Part shown: positions 1 to 46,372 of the stretch, piece after piece | Layout: each line of letters begins with the position of its first letter | Numbering within the stretch: position 1 is the first letter of the stretch | Origin: an uncultured Ectothiorhodospiraceae bacterium | GTDB lineage: Bacteria > Pseudomonadota > Gammaproteobacteria > CAMYNG01 | DNA: 64,000 bases | Direction of reading: 5' to 3' | Assembly (NCBI GenBank): GCA_947259765.1 | Contig: CAMYNG010000004.1 | Location: 38,140 to 102,139, forward strand | Notes under the pieces: generated by a model | Seen by the model: only the letters and a program-made list of their open reading frames with translations | Told to the model about the DNA's origin: nothing | Database searches by the model: none | Translations under genes and position numbers: made by a program

Positions 1-1207
1 CAGTCCAGAAGCTAACCGAGATATTTTTCTTTAACAGGGAAATAAGTACGCGTATCGGGCCCAGGCTTTTCAGCTCGAATGCCAGGCTCACTGACCAGCT
101 TGCGTCGCCCGCTTCATTTTTTTCGCCACCACCTTCACGATGCAGGCGAAACTGAAACACATCAATTCCCTCTGCTGTGCGCAGCGGCAGTTCAAAGAAC
201 AGGCTGCTGCGTTGCGTTTCACCACCCCCGGCGGAACTCAGTTGCTGCGCGTGGATCCGGGCCAGTGAACCTTCAACCTGACGAAACAACTCCTGCAGGA
301 TGTCCATCGTCGATCGCAGGTTGGTCAGCGATGCTGTCATTTGCGGCTGTGGCGTGGGGCGGGTGATCGATGGCGTCATCATCATGGCCAGTAAAGCTGC
401 CGCTTTGCCTGCCGCGGGGGTTGCCGAAGCCGGTGCGGCCGCAGGCGTGCTCTTCGCCGGCGACGGTGGTAGCGGTAATGATTGGTTTAGCAGGTTTCGC
501 GTATCGACATTATCGCGTGTTCGGCCGGTAAGTTGGGTTGAACCGCCCGCGGGCAGGTTTTCCTGGCGCAGCAATGCGGCCAGGCGATTCAGCGCAACGC
601 GAACATCGCTGGAGAGTCGGCTGCTGTCTGCAGATGTGGTTTGCGCCAACTGTTGTTCTACGAACAGACCACTGTTGAGGATCGCCCGCTTAAGCGCTTC
701 CGGATCGCGCACCTCGCTGACGGCCGGCAACTGCGAGATAAAAGACTGGATCGCCTCGCGAACGGGAAGCGGCAAGGCCGAGGCAGTATTTTGTCCGGCC
801 GGTGTTTGGGTGTGGGCCAGATTGGCCAGCAGCGGCGCCAGGGAAAGCTGTTTGGGCAGGGCTACGCGCATGGCGTTGGCAATGATCTCGGCTGGTTGTG
901 GCGCGGGTGCGAGTAGCTTTAACGCCGGGCGGCCCTCGACCAATACAAGTTTCAGGTTCACGGTGTCGCCGGGTTGGAGTTTGGCTATCAACTGTTCGAT
1001 GGACGTTGGCGCACCTTTGCCCGTTGCGAGTGTATTCGTGGGCAGTGTCTTGACCAGGGTTTTGTCGATCTGCAGGAGTAGTGATTGCCCCTCCTGTTTA
1101 ACCATTACCGCGCTCAACAACTGGCCGTTTTGCCAGGGGAGGGCGCGTGCACTTACGGGCGGGCTGCCGGGTGGCAGCGGTGGTTGTCCGGGGCCGTTAA
1201 TTTCCAT
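1..1207 (-). CDS. Flagellar hook-length control protein FliK-like, 3' end runs off the left edge (partial)
   Basis: Reverse strand is open from an ATG at 1207 (MEINGPGQPPLPPGSPPVSARALPWQNGQLLSAVMVKQEGQSLLLQIDKTLV...) to position 1. Gln/Ala/Pro-rich middle, then a C-terminal stretch (SLFFELPLRTAEGIDVFQFRLHRE...) resembling the FliK C-terminal domain. The + strand ORFs here are antisense. Confidence 0.6.
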   Translation of the reverse strand, partial: MEINGPGQPPLPPGSPPVSARALPWQNGQLLSAVMVKQEGQSLLLQIDKTLVKTLPTNTLATGKGAPTSIEQLIAKLQPGDTVNLKLVLVEGRPALKLLAPAPQPAEIIANAMRVALPKQLSLAPLLANLAHTQTPAGQNTASALPLPVREAIQSFISQLPAVSEVRDPEALKRAILNSGLFVEQQLAQTTSADSSRLSSDVRVALNRLAALLRQENLPAGGSTQLTGRTRDNVDTRNLLNQSLPLPPSPAKSTPAAAPASATPAAGKAAALLAMMMTPSITRPTPQPQMTASLTNLRSTMDILQELFRQVEGSLARIHAQQLSSAGGGETQRSSLFFELPLRTAEGIDVFQFRLHREGGGEKNEAGDASWSVSLAFELKSLGPIRVLISLLKKNISVSFWT

Positions 1208-1358
1208 CAGGTGACTCGCTGGTGCGTTATAGCATCTACACACCCACGCTATTAATATGGTTCATTAACGCAGTGGGCGAACCGAATATATTGCCTATTC
1301 TTGTAAGAGTATAAACAAGACTGCCGATAGGGGTGGTAAGGAATCTGCAGGGGCCGTA

Positions 1359-2225
1359 ATGACAAAAAGCCACATTTGGTACATCCGGCGCGGCGATGCC
1401 GTAAAAGGGCCGTTTCCGGCGGGTCAGATCTCCCAGTACCTGGTGCTCGGGCGCGTTTTTCCCACCGATGAAGTTTCGCATGACAAGGAAAAGTGGATAC
1501 CGTTGCGCAGTGTGCCGGAATTGATCCCGGACGTACTGCGCGCTCAACCAGAGGATGGAAACGCGGACGAACGCCTGCGCGCCGCACGGCGTTGGGCGGA
1601 TGAGCGCCGTACGACAGAGCAGCCCGGCTTTGAGGGCTCAGAGCGCCGCAATCCCTCGGCCGGAGATCATCCACGAGTGAGTGATGGCTTGGATAAAGTC
1701 TCGGCGGGCCGGCGCCGCTCTAAACGTTGGGCCCAACTGCTGGCGGTGCTGGCAATTATCGCCGGCGTGGTGTATCTCGGCTTTAACCTGCCGACCTCGA
1801 ATCTCGTCAGCGTTGCGCAATGTGATGCCAATGCAGCTCCAGGCGTGAATTGGAGCAACTGTCGCCTGTCTGGCGTACAAGTGCTCAAAACCGACATGCA
1901 CGGCGCACTTCTTAACAGCACGTTTCTTAATGGTGCACGTTTGACGGGTTCCAATCTAACCGAAGCAGACCTGTCTTATGCCGACCTCAGTAACGGCAGT
2001 CTGGCCTTTGTCGACTTTACGCGCGCTAAACTGACCGGCACCAGCCTGCGATCAACCGATCTCAGCCAGGCTGATTTCACCGACGCGGATCTGTCTTATG
2101 CAGATCTGTCCAAGGCAAAATTAACCGGCGCACAGTTCAAGGGTGCTCGACTTGATAATACGGTGTGGAAAGATGGAACAATTTGTAGACAGGGATCCGT
2201 GGGGCGTTGTTTGCGCCAAAAATGA
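1359..2225 (+). CDS. GYF_2/DUF4339-like N-terminus, one TM helix, pentapeptide-repeat C-terminus
   Basis: WYIRRGDAVKGPFPAGQISQYL...W is GYF_2-like; TM at LLAVLAIIAGVVYLGF; then A(D/N)LSYADLSN-type pentapeptides. Confidence 0.8.
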   Translation: MTKSHIWYIRRGDAVKGPFPAGQISQYLVLGRVFPTDEVSHDKEKWIPLRSVPELIPDVLRAQPEDGNADERLRAARRWADERRTTEQPGFEGSERRNPSAGDHPRVSDGLDKVSAGRRRSKRWAQLLAVLAIIAGVVYLGFNLPTSNLVSVAQCDANAAPGVNWSNCRLSGVQVLKTDMHGALLNSTFLNGARLTGSNLTEADLSYADLSNGSLAFVDFTRAKLTGTSLRSTDLSQADFTDADLSYADLSKAKLTGAQFKGARLDNTVWKDGTICRQGSVGRCLRQK

Positions 2226-2304
2226 GCAGGTTTTCCTGATTTATACAGCGGGTCGTATAAAAAGGTAAATTACGGCCGTCCGTCTAAGTAACTGTTAAAT
2301 ACAT

Positions 2305-2640
2305 ATGAATAACAAAGTAAAAGAACGAGAATATAGACAATTTCTAGCTCTAAAGTGGCTTGGTGTTGTTGTATATCCATTCTGGTTGGCATACGGCGTA
2401 TGGTCTGGTAATTATGATGCACCAATTATAGTTGGGTTTATAACAGGATGGGCTGTCTGGTATATAAAATATGTAAAATCAAAAGTAGAACAGCAATATA
2501 CAAATACTGAAATACCGATTGATTGGTATAGCATGCCTGTAGATAAATTTATAAATGTACCTGTACTTATTGTTTCGTTAGGCGGAATAACGCTTACCTG
2601 TCTTTTAGTGTTAATAGCAATAAAAGTATTTAACAATTAA
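2305..2640 (+). CDS. Hypothetical membrane protein (integron cassette ORF)
   Basis: 111 aa ORF with about 3 TM segments, AT-rich, starts 5 nt after a GTTAAAT core site and ends inside an attC site. Confidence 0.6.
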   Translation: MNNKVKEREYRQFLALKWLGVVVYPFWLAYGVWSGNYDAPIIVGFITGWAVWYIKYVKSKVEQQYTNTEIPIDWYSMPVDKFINVPVLIVSLGGITLTCLLVLIAIKVFNN

Positions 2641-2686
2641 ATCAAGCCGACGCAAAAAACGGCGCGGCTTATTAAAAACGTTATAT
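2628..2686 (+). other. attC site (59 bp)
   Basis: R'' ATTTAAC (2628-2634) is the exact reverse complement of the cassette's own GTTAAAT start at 2294-2300. Stem AAGCCG[A]CGC / GCGCGGCTT has one extrahelical A. Distal core GTTATAT at 2680-2686. Strongly resembles the aadA-type 59-base element. Confidence 0.82.
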
Positions 2687-2696
2687 TTATTAATTT

Positions 2697-3008
2697 ATGC
2701 CTTGTCCAAAATGTAAAATGAAAATGGGTTGGGGACCTGTAGTAGCAAATACAGGACTAGCTAAACCTTGGTACAAACCATGGAGGAGCCAATTAAAATG
2801 CGCTCATTGTGGTGCTTTGGTTAAAACTAGAGGTAAACATGATCAAGTGCAGCTGTTTTTATTTGTAATTGCAGTGTTATCGATAAGCTCTTACCTATCA
2901 CCTGGCTGCACAAACAATTGTTCAATTATAGCCATTGTTGTTGGTGTTCTTGCAGGAATACTATTATTAGTAAATGCAGTATCTAAGAAATATGAGATTA
3001 TTGAATAA
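2697..3008 (+). CDS. Hypothetical zinc-ribbon, two-TM membrane protein (integron cassette ORF)
   Basis: MPCPKCKMK...LKCAHCGALVK (CPxC and CxxC pairs) followed by two hydrophobic helices; starts 10 nt after the GTTATAT core. Confidence 0.6.
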   Translation: MPCPKCKMKMGWGPVVANTGLAKPWYKPWRSQLKCAHCGALVKTRGKHDQVQLFLFVIAVLSISSYLSPGCTNNCSIIAIVVGVLAGILLLVNAVSKKYEIIE

Positions 3009-3089
3009 ATGTAACAAGTCATTCGTGATTGGACCGCTAACCCGCCACTTTGCGTCGGCTTTAGCGGCCACACAATTCTGTCGTTATGC
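3009..3089 (+). other. attC site (81 bp)
   Basis: R'' ATGTAAC (3009-3015; reverse complement GTTACAT, 6/7 match to cassette start GTTATAT). Stem GG[A]CCGCTAA / TTAGCGGCC with one extrahelical A. Distal core GTTATGC at 3083-3089. Confidence 0.75.
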
Positions 3090-3104
3090 CTTAAAGAGTA
3101 AAAC

Positions 3105-3311
3105 ATGCCATATCGAGAATTAAACATTAATCCAAATACACCGCCAAATGTGAAAAAATTGATAAGGCGTTTGGAAGATCATTGTTTGAAAGATGTACAT
3201 TGCCTGCTGAGATTGCCAATCCCTAATTATCGATTAACGGCGGGATGTAATTTTTCAATAGCTCAGGTGCTCTTGGCATTTGTCGTTATGTTACCTAGTC
3301 AAGATAATTAA
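3105..3311 (+). pseudogene. Cassette ORF, apparently truncated at its 3' end
   Basis: Starts 15 nt after the GTTATGC core. The coding sequence runs through a second GTTATGT core-like site at 3285-3291 and ends shortly after; no attC hairpin follows. Confidence 0.4.
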
Positions 3312-3664
3312 AATATCAGTCGAAGATCTAAAAAAGGAAGCAACTGTAAAACCACCTATTGATTCTTGGAAGGTGAGTCGCGGATAGCATGGCAAAGGAT
3401 GCTTTTTTGCGCCGGACGGTCGTACAACACGTCGGTTATTGTATGCGAATGCTTTTGGGAGATATGGCTGGATTTAAATCGTCCGTAAATCGGAATGATC
3501 AGCGCTGGGGCCCAATCACTTGCGTTGGTGTAAAGCAGCATTTCAGGGCTGACGATACATCGAGCTGTCCGGATTAGTGAATCGTTTGACGTTTCGCGCA
3601 GGCTGTTGATGCCGATAGTTGAATTTTTTCAATTGAATTTCAGAAAGTAAGGAATTGAGAGCTA

Positions 3665-4042
3665 ATGGTTAAAGTAACCTCAATCGAAAAAGGTATACTT
3701 TGTTCTGAATGGCCTGCTCACGCCATTGTTTCAAAAGCGTCCATAGAGGAAGAAACCTCAAAACGGCAAGCCCTGACAAATGAGCCACACGGACTGCTTG
3801 TGAAATTGCATGGAATAAAAGGTATAACTGATGACGCTTGGAAAATCATCTCAGGAAAAAACGTTCAGTCAATAACATCAGCGCTTGCGATTCTCTATGA
3901 TCGTAAATCAGGGTTTTATGAGCATAGTAAAATCATGGTAGACCTCAGATTTCTGCATGATTTCGCTGTAGTGTATCCCGTGAAGTTTTTTGAAGATGAA
4001 GGCTCTGCGCTCGCATGGCTGCGGGCTTTTAAAAAGAAGTAA
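3665..4042 (+). CDS. Hypothetical protein, STAS/SpoIIAA-like character
   Basis: 125 aa ORF; C-terminal KIMVDLRFLHDFAVVYPVKFFEDEGSALAWL pattern is typical of small STAS-like proteins. Confidence 0.5.
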   Translation: MVKVTSIEKGILCSEWPAHAIVSKASIEEETSKRQALTNEPHGLLVKLHGIKGITDDAWKIISGKNVQSITSALAILYDRKSGFYEHSKIMVDLRFLHDFAVVYPVKFFEDEGSALAWLRAFKKK

Positions 4043-4068
4043 AAATCAACCGTTAGGCTAATGAAAAG

Positions 4069-4689
4069 ATGAGCATTGTTGATACAATTTCACTTTTCGG
4101 AATCATGTTTGTACTTGCGGCAATACCGAGTACAAGCGTAGCACTCGTTGTAACCCGCTCAGCTACATTGGGTGTAGGTAATGGTATTGCTGTTGCCGCT
4201 GGTATTGTTTTAGGCGATTTGATTTTTATCATGCTGGCCATTTTTGGTCTTTCCGTAGTGGCAGAAACTATGGGTAACCTGTTTATGGTTATAAAGTACT
4301 TAGGTGCTCTATATCTGCTTTGGCTTGGGTTCTCATTATTATCGACACAAAACAAATCCACAATTACGGTGAATAAAGTCGGAGAAAAGGGCAGTCTTGT
4401 GGCCAGCTTCCTTGCGGGGTTTTTTCTTACTTTGGGCGATGTTAAAGCTATCGTTTTCTACGTCAGCTTATTTCCAATTTTTATTGATTTGTCAAAACTT
4501 CAAGTAACGGAAATTCTGGTTGTCTTATTTGTAACGGTGGTTGGTGTTGGCGGCGTAAAAATTTTCTATGCCCTATCAGCAACAAAGGTTGTATCTATCG
4601 CAAGGGCGCTTAAGTTTGAGCATGTCACTCGAAAAACAGCAGGCGGGTTTATGGTTGGAGCTGGCACTTACCTAATTGTAAAAGCCTAG
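4069..4689 (+). CDS. LysE family translocator
   Basis: 206 aa, multi-TM, LysE/RhtB-like (GNGIAVAAGIVLGDLIFIMLAIFGLS...KYLGALYLLWLGFSLL). Preceded by core-like GTTAGGC at 4052-4058. Confidence 0.85.
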   Translation: MSIVDTISLFGIMFVLAAIPSTSVALVVTRSATLGVGNGIAVAAGIVLGDLIFIMLAIFGLSVVAETMGNLFMVIKYLGALYLLWLGFSLLSTQNKSTITVNKVGEKGSLVASFLAGFFLTLGDVKAIVFYVSLFPIFIDLSKLQVTEILVVLFVTVVGVGGVKIFYALSATKVVSIARALKFEHVTRKTAGGFMVGAGTYLIVKA

Positions 4690-4770
4690 CAATTGCTAGT
4701 GCTCGGGTAGCAAAAAGTTCCGCTCGTTCCTCGCTTTACATTTTCCTGCCAGTAATGCGTGGTGTTCGAC
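4684..4770 (+). other. Degenerate attC candidate
   Basis: GCCTAGC at 4684-4690 differs at one base from the reverse complement of the upstream core GTTAGGC; weak TTGCTAG/CCAGTAA pairing; distal GTTCGAC (4764-4770) is a poor core. Confidence 0.3.
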
Positions 4771-4791
4771 GCATTTATATGGAGAGACAGT

Positions 4792-5025
4792 GTGGAAAAA
4801 GAACCTCTAAGTATTAATGACAAGGGCTCTTACCTCCTTGTTGAGTTCTTCGGAAAGTTCAGTGTGAAGGCAGGTAAACAATGTATTGACAGAATGGCTG
4901 AAGCCTACGATAAACACCGTCGTTCAAGAGTCCTGTTGGATTGCAAAAATATGACTGGAAATCTGCCGTTTTTTGAAAGGTTCCAAGTCGCGGAGTATGG
5001 TTCCACGAAGCAGAGCTTTGGCTGA
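4792..5025 (+). pseudogene. STAS-like protein, probably C-terminally truncated or frameshifted
   Basis: GTG start at 4792; SYLLVEFFGKFSVKAGKQCIDRMAEAY...RSRVLLDCKNMTG is STAS-like but stops right after VAEYGSTKQSFG. Confidence 0.4.
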
Positions 5026-5113
5026 CCAGATCGTCGCCCGACAAACCGGATGCCGGGAAGGCCAGTAGCCGCGCCTGATTCGCAGCGTAAGATTTCTGGA
5101 AGGATTAGGACAT

Positions 5114-5506
5114 ATGGATTGGACTTATTGGACAAAGCTAGCTCATACGTTGATATTCTTTTTCGCGTCGGCCTGCGTCATGTACGTCGTATATTGCGGC
5201 GTCGCGGGCAAGATCAATAACTATCTATGGGCAGCACTTGGGGTCGTGTTTATTGTCGTTCTCATTTATGCTGCCAATGGTTTTGAGTGCCCGTTGACGA
5301 CCTTGGTTCACCGGCTGGCCGGTCGGCGTGACGTTCCTGACATCTTTTTTCCAGATTGGTTGGCAAGAAATATCATGCCCGCTTCCACCGTCATCTACGT
5401 TGTTGGTGCTGTGCTTGTTGCTCGACACATGTGTCAAGCGAGAAAATCTGACAAGCTTTTCCAGACGACGTTGAACATCCCCGGTTTTAGTGGACAAAAA
5501 GTCTAA
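5114..5506 (+). CDS. Hypothetical membrane protein
   Basis: 130 aa ORF with about 3 hydrophobic helices; no family recognised. Confidence 0.55.
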   Translation: MDWTYWTKLAHTLIFFFASACVMYVVYCGVAGKINNYLWAALGVVFIVVLIYAANGFECPLTTLVHRLAGRRDVPDIFFPDWLARNIMPASTVIYVVGAVLVARHMCQARKSDKLFQTTLNIPGFSGQKV

Positions 5507-5524
5507 CTGAAACGGAGAAGGAAA

Positions 5525-5611
5525 ATGCCAAGATACAATCAACACAAGAAGACGCACCGCTATAGTAGCGAATCAAAAGCTATAGCAGCTCAAAAGAGCC
5601 CCAAAATTTAA
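5525..5611 (+). pseudogene. Possible IS3-type transposase OrfA N-terminal remnant
   Basis: 28-codon ORF MPRYNQHKKTHRYSSESKAIAAQKSPKI resembles the start of IS3-family OrfA proteins (RYSxEFKAxAV-type), then stops. Confidence 0.35.
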
Positions 5612-8013: not shown

Positions 8014-8214
8014 TGCAAAACACACGCCGGTAGCTCGGAATGTGATTTTGCCTGTCGCTCTAAGGGAAGGATCTGTGGCGCTAAATCTCGTTAGTTGACA
8101 AAGTACAGATACTTATTCATAGTGGAAAGCATGCAAAGTCAACTCAGTATATTTCAGCAAATTATTACCCTCATTCAAAGAGGGTGGTGGGTTTGCTAGT
8201 GCACAAGTAATTCG

Positions 8215-8243
8215 AAAAAACCCGCCCTTGAGGCGGGTTTTTT
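8215..8243 (+). terminator. Rho-independent terminator
   Basis: aaaaaaCCCGCCcttgaGGCGGGtttttt. Confidence 0.85.
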
Positions 8244-41255: not shown

Positions 41256-42764
41256 ATGTGTGGAATTGTAGGGCTTGTCAGCAAGTCAGCGGTTAACCAG
41301 GCAATTTACGACGGTCTTATTGTCTTGCAGCATCGTGGCCAGGATGCTGCGGGAATTGTGACCTGTCACGACGGACGCATGTTGATGCGCAAGGCTAACG
41401 GCCTGGTGCGCGATGTATTTCATACCCGTCACATGTTGCGTTTACGCGGCAATATGGGTATCGGCCATGTGCGTTATCCCACCGCCGGGTGTACGTCATC
41501 GGCGGAAGCTCAACCGTTTTATGTGAATTCTCCCTTTGGCATCGCGTTGGCACATAACGGCAATCTGATTAACGCCGAAGAACTGAAACGTGAGTTGTTT
41601 GTCGAGGACCGTCGTCACCTGAATACCGACTCCGATTCCGAGGTTTTGCTTAACGTATTTGCGCATGAACTTGATGCAGTAAGCAAATTGCGCATTGGCG
41701 AAGACGATATCTTCAGTGCCGTTGCCGGTGTACACCGGCGTTGTAGTGGTGCCTACGCGGTCGTTGCGGTGATAACCGACTTGGGCGTCGTGGCGTTTCG
41801 TGATCCTTATGGTATTCGACCATTGGTTTACGGCAAACGTCAGACCGATGAGGGCGTTGAATATATGGTGGCCTCAGAAAGTGTGGCGCTTGATGCCTTG
41901 GGCTTCGAGCTTGTGCGTGATGTTGAGCCGGGTGAGGGCATTTTTATTGATAAGGACGGAAATTTGTTTACCCGACAATGCAGTAAGTCGCACCGCCTTT
42001 CGCCGTGCATATTCGAACAGGTCTATTTTGCACGGCCCGATTCAATTATTGAGGGCATTTCCGTCTATAACTCGCGTGTTAATATGGGAGAGTTTCTCGC
42101 CCGCAAGATTGAGCGTGTGTTTCCCGAGCATGATATAGATGTTGTTATTCCCATTCCCGAGTCCAGTTTAACGTCCGCCTTACAGCTCGCTGATACGTTG
42201 AATATCAACTACCGGGCAGGATTCGTTAAGAATCGCTACATAGGCCGAACATTTATTATGCCGGGGCAAAAACAACGCAAAAAGTCGGTGCGGCAAAAAC
42301 TAAATGCCATCGATATGGAGTTTCGCAACAAAAATGTGCTGTTGGTAGACGACTCTATCGTGCGCGGCACGACCTCCGAGCAAATTATTCAAATGGCACG
42401 TGAGGCAGGTGCCAACAAAGTCTACTTTGCATCTGCCGCACCGCCGGTGCGGTATCCAAATGTTTACGGTATTGACATGCCATCGGCGACTGAGCTTATC
42501 GGCCATGGTCGAGACAATCAGGCCATTGCCGATGCGATCGGGGCAGACTGGCTGGTGTATCAGGATCTTGAAGATCTGGTTGAGGCAACAAGGCTTGGGA
42601 ATCCCGGAATCACGGAATTCGAAACCTCTGTGTTTGATGGCAAGTACGTTACCGGTGATGTCACTCCGAGTTACCTTCAGCATCTCGAGTGGCTGCGCAG
42701 TGATGATGCCAAGGAGCAACGTCGTTCTGACGATGAGGTCATTGAGATCCACAATAGCGCATGA
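41256..42764 (+). CDS. purF: Amidophosphoribosyltransferase
   Basis: [60 protein letters not shown]. Confidence 0.98.
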
Positions 42765-42816
42765 GCTTTCTCGCGTGGCTTGACATGCTTTCGAACATCA
42801 CCTAATCTGGTTTCCA

Positions 42817-42868
42817 CGGCGCCGATTTGACTATCAGCTTGCGGGCGCGTTATAAATTCAGCTAAAGC
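42817..42868 (+). promoter_or_regulatory. SAM-II-like riboswitch aptamer
   Basis: GCGCC-GATTTGACTATCAGCTTGCG-GGCGC-GTTATAAATTCAGCTAAAG closely matches the SAM-II pattern (P1, GAUUUaAC loop start, GUgAUAAAUnnAGCUAAA 3' strand). P1 = 42819-42823/42844-42848. Sits upstream of metZ. Confidence 0.8.
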
Positions 42869-42873
42869 GTGCG

Positions 42874-42908
42874 ACCTGCTTTAGCGTTTGCTGATGCGGG
42901 TTTTTTTT
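42874..42908 (+). terminator. Riboswitch expression-platform terminator
   Basis: ACCTGC (42874-42879) / GCGGGT (42896-42901) stem then U8 tract. Antiterminator GCTAAAGC (42861-42868) / GCTTTAGC (42878-42885) overlaps both the aptamer 3' strand and the terminator 5' arm. Confidence 0.7.
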
Positions 42909-42958
42909 GTGCCCGTTGTTCAGGAATCAGATTAGTTCGAAATGTAACGGGAGGAGCT

Positions 42959-44137
42959 ATGACAAGCTGGGATGAGTATGGTTTAAACACTCGGGGCGTG
43001 CGCGCGGGTCAACACCGAACCGCGGAAGGCGAGCACGCAGAACCCATTTTCCCGACGTCGAGTTACGTGTTTGAAAGCGCGGCACAAGCCGCGGCACGAT
43101 TTGCAGGTGACGAGCCGGGAAATATTTATTCACGTTTCACCAACCCCACAGTTCGAAATTTTGAGGAACGACTGGCCGCACTGGAAGGTGGTGAATGTTG
43201 TGTGGCTACGGCCTCCGGCATGTCCGCTATTTTGAGCACCTGTTCGTCATTGTTGAAAGCTGGCGATCATATTGTGTCGTCGCGGGCGATTTTCGGTAGT
43301 ACGGTGGTATTGTTTAATAAATACCTGAGTCGCTATGGTATCGCGACCGACTATGTGGCGCTCACCGATCTCAACGCCTGGGAACGGGCGATTCGACCGA
43401 ATACGCGTTTGTTTTTTCTGGAAACCCCGTCGAATCCGTTAACCGAAGTGGCGGATATCACTGCGCTTGCAAACCTTGCGCATGCGCACGATATCATTCT
43501 CGTGGTAGACAATTGTTTTTGTACGCCGGCGTTGCAGCAACCCCTGGAGCTTGGTGCTGATGTGGTGGTTCATTCTGCGACTAAATACATTGATGGGCAG
43601 GGGCGTTGTGTTGGGGGCGCCGTTGTAGGCAATGCGCAACACGTTGGTGAGGATGTGTTCGGCTTTTTACGCACTGCTGGGCCGACAATGAGCGCATTCA
43701 ATGCCTGGGTATTTCTAAAGGGACTGGAGACGCTTGCATTGCGCATGGAGCGGCACAGTCATAATGCGCGCCTATTGGCCGACTGGCTGCAGGAACAGTC
43801 TGGCGTAACCCGGGTGCATTACACTGGATTGGCATCGCATCCGCAACATGAGCTCGCACGTCGACAGCAAAGTGATTTTGGCGGTGTGTTGTCCTTCGAG
43901 GTGCAAGGCGGGCAAGCGGCTGCCTGGAAGGTGATCGATCAAACACGCTTTTTGTCGATAACCGCTAACCTGGGTGACAGCAAGACCACGATAACGCACC
44001 CCGCGACGACCACGCATGCACGACTTACTCAGCAAGAACGCGATCATGCAGGTATTAGTGATGGTTTAGTTCGCGTTGCCGTCGGCCTGGAAGACGTCGA
44101 GGATATTCAAAACGATCTGGAGCGCGGTTTGACTTAA
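42959..44137 (+). CDS. metZ: O-succinylhomoserine sulfhydrylase
   Basis: ATG at 42959 after GGGAGGAGCT. MTSWDEYGLNTRGVRAGQHRTAEGEHAEPIFPTSSYVFESAAQAAARF; HSATKYIDGQGRCVGGAVVG; downstream of purF. Confidence 0.94.
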   Translation: MTSWDEYGLNTRGVRAGQHRTAEGEHAEPIFPTSSYVFESAAQAAARFAGDEPGNIYSRFTNPTVRNFEERLAALEGGECCVATASGMSAILSTCSSLLKAGDHIVSSRAIFGSTVVLFNKYLSRYGIATDYVALTDLNAWERAIRPNTRLFFLETPSNPLTEVADITALANLAHAHDIILVVDNCFCTPALQQPLELGADVVVHSATKYIDGQGRCVGGAVVGNAQHVGEDVFGFLRTAGPTMSAFNAWVFLKGLETLALRMERHSHNARLLADWLQEQSGVTRVHYTGLASHPQHELARRQQSDFGGVLSFEVQGGQAAAWKVIDQTRFLSITANLGDSKTTITHPATTTHARLTQQERDHAGISDGLVRVAVGLEDVEDIQNDLERGLT

Positions 44138-44250: not shown

Positions 44251-45666
<1,416 letters not shown>

Positions 45667-45767
45667 TTATTATTCTCTTAACATATTGAATTTATTGATA
45701 ATGACGTTTCGTTATATCCTGAAAGAGCAATCCAGCGTCGGTTGCAGGCCGGATTGAGCTGGCGAGA

Positions 45768-45799
45768 AGTTTAGGCTCTGTACCCAAGTACAGAGTCAA
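45768..45799 (-). promoter_or_regulatory. MerR-type mer operator/promoter
   Basis: Minus strand TTGACT-CTGTACTTGGGTACAGAGCC-TAAACT: -35, 6-4-6 dyad CTGTAC-TTGG-GTACAG in a 20-bp spacer, -10. Closely parallels Tn501 PmerT (TTGACTCCGTACATGAGTACGGAAGTAAGGT). Confidence 0.85.
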
Positions 45800-45973
45800 G
45801 AAGGCGGGGCAGACTCCCGTCCTCAGAGGCGAAGAGATCCGACAATGCTCCGGGGTTCAGCAGGGTCGATTAATCGGTGTTTTCTAAACGAAAGGGCGCA
45901 CTCAATAGAGATACACCAGCGGGGAGGTACACCACCGAATTTATTCACCGGGACATGTTTTGGGAATGGTTAG

Positions 45974-46372
45974 TTAGTCGTGTTTGGTCAGTGTTTCGAC
46001 AATCGGGCAGTGGGCGTTGTTTCCGGAGCCGCAGGCGGAGATAAGTTCGTTGAGGGTTTCACGCAGTGCGTTTAAATCCGCGATTTGTTGCTCTATGTTT
46101 TCAAGTTTGTGCGCCGCGCGCTCGCGTACATCCTGGCAATGGCCGTCGCCGAGTTCGAGTAGTTCTCGGATTTCCTGCAGGCTGAAGCCGAGCTTTTGTG
46201 CGCGCTTGATGAATTTAATACGCTCGATTGTTTCCGGCGGATAGTATCGAAAGCCGGATAGCGGTTTGTCAGGCTCCTCCACCAGTCCTATGCGTTGGTA
46301 GTAGCGGACTGTTTCCAGATTGACACCCGCTGCGCGGGCGAGAAACCCGATTGTAAGTTTTGGGCTTGACAT
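45974..46372 (-). CDS. merR: MerR family regulator, mercury-type
   Basis: LTIGFLARAAGVNLETVRYYQRIGLVEEP; metal cysteines in LGDGHCQDV and ACGSGNNAHCPIVETL (CX8C loop as in MerR). Confidence 0.87.
   Translation of the reverse strand: MSSPKLTIGFLARAAGVNLETVRYYQRIGLVEEPDKPLSGFRYYPPETIERIKFIKRAQKLGFSLQEIRELLELGDGHCQDVRERAAHKLENIEQQIADLNALRETLNELISACGSGNNAHCPIVETLTKHD

Follow-up and report, generated by a model that had tools for sequence, protein, structure and literature searches.

A probable gammaproteobacterial SAM-II riboswitch predicted to control metZ by transcription attenuation

The metZ leader of an uncultured Ectothiorhodospiraceae bacterium is, to judge from its sequence, very probably a SAM-II riboswitch of a gammaproteobacterial type, acting on metZ through transcription attenuation. 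It lies on the plus strand between purF (ends at 42764) and metZ (start at 42959) in a 64,000-nucleotide stretch of DNA, here called the window. This reading draws on the anatomy of the leader, a covariance match, conservation, the layout of promoter and terminator, an excess of complementarity and a predicted folding order; SAM as the ligand, SAM binding and SAM-dependent termination are suggested by analogy with the known class. We also consider it rather likely that gammaproteobacterial SAM-II elements are a structural variant with an expression platform that competes for the strand of the SAM pocket (GCUAAAGC), whereas the alphaproteobacterial platform competes for the distal pseudoknot strand. 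The same judgement covers the proposals that this variant is widespread in the class, mostly below the Rfam cut-off, and that it is identical with both the betaproteobacterial metXZ element and RF02424, a model of the wrong strand.

The Rfam covariance model of SAM-II (RF00521) matches 42809-42886 (+) over all of its positions, 1-79, with 29.8 bits. The SAM-II pattern recognised in the initial annotation is borne out by the significance of this match (E 2.6e-5 in a 191-base search of 42770-42960; 7.6e-5 in the whole genome), yet the score stays below the gathering score of 36 bits, which is a database convention. A gathering-level Rfam scan of the window reported no SAM riboswitch, 29.8 bits being less than 36; the match is seen with an E-value threshold. 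It is the genome's only RF00521 match at E ≤0.01. The next best scores 15.3 bits, and it and the other weak matches in the genome, six in all (11-15 bits, E ≥0.7), were taken as chance. At E 0.01, 14 control genomes had no RF00521 match. Gammaproteobacterial elements mostly score 22-48 bits against RF00521, compared with mostly 46-88 bits in genomes that share the phylum but not the class, and the low score here seems to reflect how far the element has diverged from an alphaproteobacterial model. Apart from the gathering score, the leader has the marks of SAM-II: the covariance match, P1 and P2, the core bases (GATTT, TTGC, the AAAT linker and GCTAAA, all present) and a methionine gene downstream. 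That gene (42959-44137, +) was correctly named metZ in the initial annotation, and its O-succinylhomoserine sulfhydrylase product matches two NCBIfam equivalog models above their cut-offs, NF006003 (705.8 bits; cut-off 522) and TIGR01325 (585.7 bits; cut-off 510.05). SAM-V has a related SAM-binding fold and at times stands in tandem with SAM-II, in which case it acts on translation (PMC9481103); its covariance model found no match within 42770-42960, even at E up to 10.

The positions first proposed for P1, its loop, the linker, the antiterminator and the terminator were all confirmed to the base. Stem P1 pairs GCGCC (42819-42823) with GGCGC (42844-42848) and encloses the loop GATTTGACTATCAGCTTGCG (42824-42843); stem and loop, the latter with GATTT and CAGCTTGC, span 42819-42848. 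The A-rich linker GTTATAAATTCA leads from P1 to the 3′ strand of the pseudoknot, GCTAAAGC (42861-42868), all on the plus strand. The pseudoknot helix P2 (42835-42869, +) comprises seven pairs: C42842-G42861, G42841-C42862, U42840-A42864, U42839-A42865, C42838-G42867, G42837-C42868 and C42835-G42869. They include two blocks, UUGC (42839-42842) with GC(U)AA (42861-42865) and GC (42837-42838) with GC (42867-42868), and U42863 is left unpaired, as in SAM-II. The pairing scheme follows the known SAM-II structure, as reported by Gilbert et al. 2008.

Downstream of P1 lie the mutually exclusive hairpins of a predicted transcription-attenuating riboswitch, overlapping the aptamer strand 42861-42868. 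In the antiterminator (+), GCTAAAGC (42861-42868) pairs with GCTTTAGC (42878-42885) through 8/8 Watson-Crick pairs, a complement that 0.36% of dinucleotide shuffles (0.0036) of the spacer between aptamer and U-tract reach. The intrinsic terminator (42874-42908, +) pairs ACCTGC (42874-42879) with GCGGGT (42896-42901), is lengthened by an inner UUAGC/GCUGA helix and ends in a run of eight U (42901-42908). As isolated hairpins, antiterminator and terminator have predicted energies of -9.8 and -14.9 kcal/mol. Because both use 42878-42885 they exclude each other, as had been claimed; the further claim that the 5′ arm of the antiterminator is the pseudoknot strand also holds, 42861-42868 serving in both, with all eight pairs formed and with the coupling present in many relatives, far above chance. 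Translational control by masking of the ribosome site at metZ was considered and set aside: the Shine-Dalgarno sequence GGAGGAG (42950-42956, +), 3 nt from the metZ ATG, is outside the switch, ∼80 nt beyond the aptamer core.

A sigma-70-like promoter at 42780-42808 (+) precedes the aptamer, with a -35 box TTGACA (42780-42785), a spacer of 17 and a -10 box TAATCT (42803-42808), for a consensus score of 9/12 bases. Its sequence predicts that transcription would start at ∼42813-42817, immediately 5′ of P1. Among 102 upstream regions of relatives, 73.5% have such a promoter directly 5′ of P1, compared with 7.1% of shuffles, and the same promoter position, along with many terminators, was described for SAM-II by Corbino et al. 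2005 (PMC1273637). An automatic scan of the locus called neither promoter nor terminator, the former because the -10 box is weak (3/6 consensus matches) and the latter because of an internal mismatch in the terminator stem.

In the mechanism that we propose, P1 would be the first part of the new transcript to fold. With SAM bound, GCUAAAGC (42861-42868) would be kept in P2 with the P1 loop; GCUUUAGC would then be free to serve as the 5′ side of the terminator, and polymerase would halt at the U-tract before metZ. When SAM is scarce, GCUAAAGC would pair with GCUUUAGC once the latter had emerged, thereby blocking the 5′ side of the terminator and allowing metZ to be transcribed. The choice between the hairpins is probably kinetic, since the terminator is the more stable of the two at equilibrium; with termination as the predicted equilibrium default, SAM-free read-through must depend on earlier formation of the antiterminator. 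As the transcript was lengthened, its minimum-energy fold consisted of P1 alone up to ∼42868 and then showed a competing stem at 42871-42883; at 42886-42892 (-20.6 kcal/mol) it comprised P1 and the antiterminator, and from 42901 (-31.3 to -32.8 kcal/mol) it included the terminator. These calculations were made without pseudoknot and ligand, so the SAM step is inferred from the class. The minimum-energy fold of the leader contains the terminator, lacks P1 and is of no unusual stability (z -0.96).

Conservation was followed in a pair table of 73 distinct relatives, which were chosen for a target-like platform; the table is thus circular for the antiterminator and is not counted as evidence for it. 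The four outer P1 pairs and 5/7 P2 pairs are invariant in these relatives and yield no covariation because they never vary. The pair just outside P1 does covary, being paired in 56 of the 73 (shuffle mean 32.2, maximum 43), and one terminator pair is seen as U-G, C-G and U-A. In a 54-sequence alignment the core bases are fully invariant except for the AAAT linker. The antiterminator helix has no possible two-sided covariation, as its aptamer strand is invariant. As a separate observation, the stretch GTGCCCG (42909-42915), just 3′ of the U-tract, is conserved and complementary to the 3′ side of the terminator. A complement of this type forms 5/5 pairs in 37 of 69 relatives, compared with 14 when the letters are shuffled; its two-sided covariation is only borderline (42/1000 permutations), and the stretch perhaps forms a hairpin in the read-through RNA.

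The case for a structural variant comes from the platforms of the relatives. A complement of the aptamer strand GCTAAAGN was sought between aptamer and U-tract, stopping before the U-tract; this superseded an initial test that permitted pairing with the U-tract and gave little excess. Among gamma-type elements (n = 73), at least seven contiguous Watson-Crick pairs to the SAM-pocket strand GCUAAAGN were found in 40%, versus 1.2% of shuffles, and the distal P2 strand had no excess of complementarity in this set. None of 17 distinct elements from the same phylum outside the class, taken to be alphaproteobacterial, had even five pairs to the SAM-pocket strand. Their excess was modest and fell at the distal P2 strand (at least seven pairs in 24%, versus 4.4% of shuffles). 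In both types the 3′ strand of P2 would then appear to be the 5′ side of the antiterminator, with the SAM-pocket part used in gammaproteobacteria and the distal part in alphaproteobacteria, a contrast in which the alphaproteobacterial sample is small (n = 17) and made up of the highest-scoring matches.

Elements of this kind recur across the class. All six genomes examined from the same order carry one, and among 369 sampled genomes of the class, 134 match RF00521 at E ≤0.005 and 31 do so above the gathering cut-off. The GTDB class sampled here should take in the old Betaproteobacteria. To avoid selection by RNA, 80 loci were gathered by the metZ protein alone; the relatives named among them are nearly all gammaproteobacteria (Methylophaga, Sedimenticola, Thioalkalivibrio, Competibacter, Nitrococcus). 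The SAM-II core and P1 occur in 37 of the 80, mostly 120-180 nt 5′ of metZ, and 45 of the 78 genomes behind these loci match RF00521 at E ≤0.01. Elements collected by the RNA search precede a metZ-like ORF in 44 cases; a few of these ORFs, at no more than 38-44% identity, may encode other sulfhydrylases. For other elements the gene downstream is metK or metF. Gamma-type elements were seen before metK at L024, L037, L044, L133, L142, L149 and L150, before metF at L039 and L129, and before a LysR-type, CysB-like regulator at L147, these downstream genes being checked with Pfam in three representatives and assigned by eye in the remainder.

A gene set of metZ, metK and metF suits feedback by SAM, which bears on whether the fold might be a specificity variant for a compound related to SAM, such as SAH. 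The divergence of gammaproteobacterial elements from the alphaproteobacterial model (22-48 versus mostly 46-88 bits) and a ligand assignment made from sequence only would leave room for such a variant. Against it, the conserved core bases are retained and the genome has a separate SAH riboswitch (RF01057, 62.3 bits), located outside the window at G000:C7:89934-90012 (minus), and we regard a change of ligand as very unlikely. Slightly better placed, if still improbable, is a SAM-II aptamer that does not switch, where the terminator constitutively keeps metZ low or the aptamer merely stabilises the RNA. It would fit the greater equilibrium stability of the terminator over the antiterminator, and SAM-II leaders of S. 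meliloti affect mRNA stability too (PMC9373788). However, the core is intact, a perfect 8-base antiterminator would not be expected to last without switching, and the antiterminator complement is kept far above chance in relatives, all of which argue for the switching SAM-II leader.

The scarcely credible alternative is that function resides in a small RNA of the opposite strand, as modelled by RF02424 (Bp2_287), which has a weak match at 42892-42823 (minus; 16.9 bits, E 0.056). Promoter and U-tract belong to the plus strand, which reads into metZ, and in the class as a whole 34 of 40 RF02424 matches lie opposite a listed RF00521 match, with a SAM-II core in four of the remaining six. The RF02424 gathering threshold of 70 bits is reached by none of the class matches, the metZ leader with its 16.9 bits included. 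Matches of RF02424 fall at the same places as SAM-II, the difference being that the family models the opposite strand and is filed as a Burkholderia sRNA. Judged by its matches in the class, RF02424 is most likely a model of SAM-II built on the wrong strand. The paper that introduced Bp2_287 shows purF, metZ and metX next to it and suggests that it acts in cis on methionine metabolism (PMC3521395).

A similar identity is suggested for the betaproteobacterial metXZ element, which Leyn et al. 2014 place before metX or metZ with a pseudoknot and terminator (PMC4239095). As described there, the pseudoknot joins regions 1-4 and 2-6, which is the SAM-II topology, and a terminator follows; the difference is that the element is presented as new and with no ligand assigned (PMC4239095). 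Going by this published description, the metXZ element is probably SAM-II as well, an identity that we put forward as a lead.

With a plus-strand SAM-II riboswitch as the preferred reading, the gammaproteobacterial context pointed out in the initial annotation stands, although it is less notable than was supposed, given that Coxiella (PMC1273637) and gammaproteobacterial examples (PMC2258182) were already known. The 2005 SAM-II report includes members from Coxiella, Bordetella and Bacteroides (PMC1273637); in 2007, Barrick and Breaker called gammaproteobacterial examples sporadic and noted SAM-II terminators in alpha- and betaproteobacteria (PMC2258182). Leyn et al. 2014 found SAM_alpha only in Rhizobiales and Rhodobacterales (PMC4239095). 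Attenuation of metZ by SAM-II has a precedent in S. meliloti, where Scheuer et al. 2022 predicted it for the metZ leader and detected a short terminated RNA (PMC9373788). By its description that leader resembles ours in having SAM-II before metZ with predicted transcription attenuation (PMC9373788), and differs in being alphaproteobacterial. The class is not new, since gammaproteobacterial SAM-II (2005, 2007), SAM-II terminators and metZ attenuation in S. meliloti are published; the additions to knowledge are the gamma-type platform and its frequency. The metZ leader shares with SAM-II (RF00521, SAM_alpha; PMC1273637) a single P1, an H-type pseudoknot, the GATTT / TTGC / GCTAAA core, a promoter immediately 5′ of P1, a methionine gene downstream and a terminator after P2. 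It differs in scoring below the gathering cut-off, in its short loop with CAGCTTGC and in an antiterminator that pairs with the SAM-pocket strand and not with the distal P2 strand.

If these readings hold, SAM-II would no longer be an alphaproteobacterial class with sporadic gammaproteobacterial cases (PMC2258182; PMC4239095) but would commonly regulate metZ across many gammaproteobacterial lineages. Predicted ligand contact and antitermination fall on the same eight bases, which would open ligand-coupled strand exchange to direct testing in a leader of ∼100 nt. Two corrections of the record are suggested, the first concerning RF02424, in both strand and type, and the second the ligand left unassigned for the metXZ element.

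Tandem SAM-II is known from 44 examples (PMC9481103), and several tandem pairs were seen in the relatives. At L155 (reverse strand, 753-5604; also L035 and L141), a gene for a MoxR-like AAA ATPase (Pfam AAA_5, bpMoxR) has two SAM-II cores in front of it, spaced 113 nt apart, and looks an unusual target; downstream is a divergent SAM synthetase in which all three Pfam domains are present. Other tandem pairs, 93-120 nt apart, occur at L026/L158, L127/L157, L128/L156 and L130, where the closest long ORF downstream is no methionine gene and three of the encoded proteins have no Pfam match. Elsewhere in the window, the Pseudomonas sRNA P9 (RF00624) is matched at 8158-8241 (+) with 53.2 bits, above its gathering score. 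Adjoining metZ, the minus-strand stretch 44251-46372 carries a mercury(II) reductase gene (NF010311) and, at 45974-46372, what is by sequence a MerR-like regulator.
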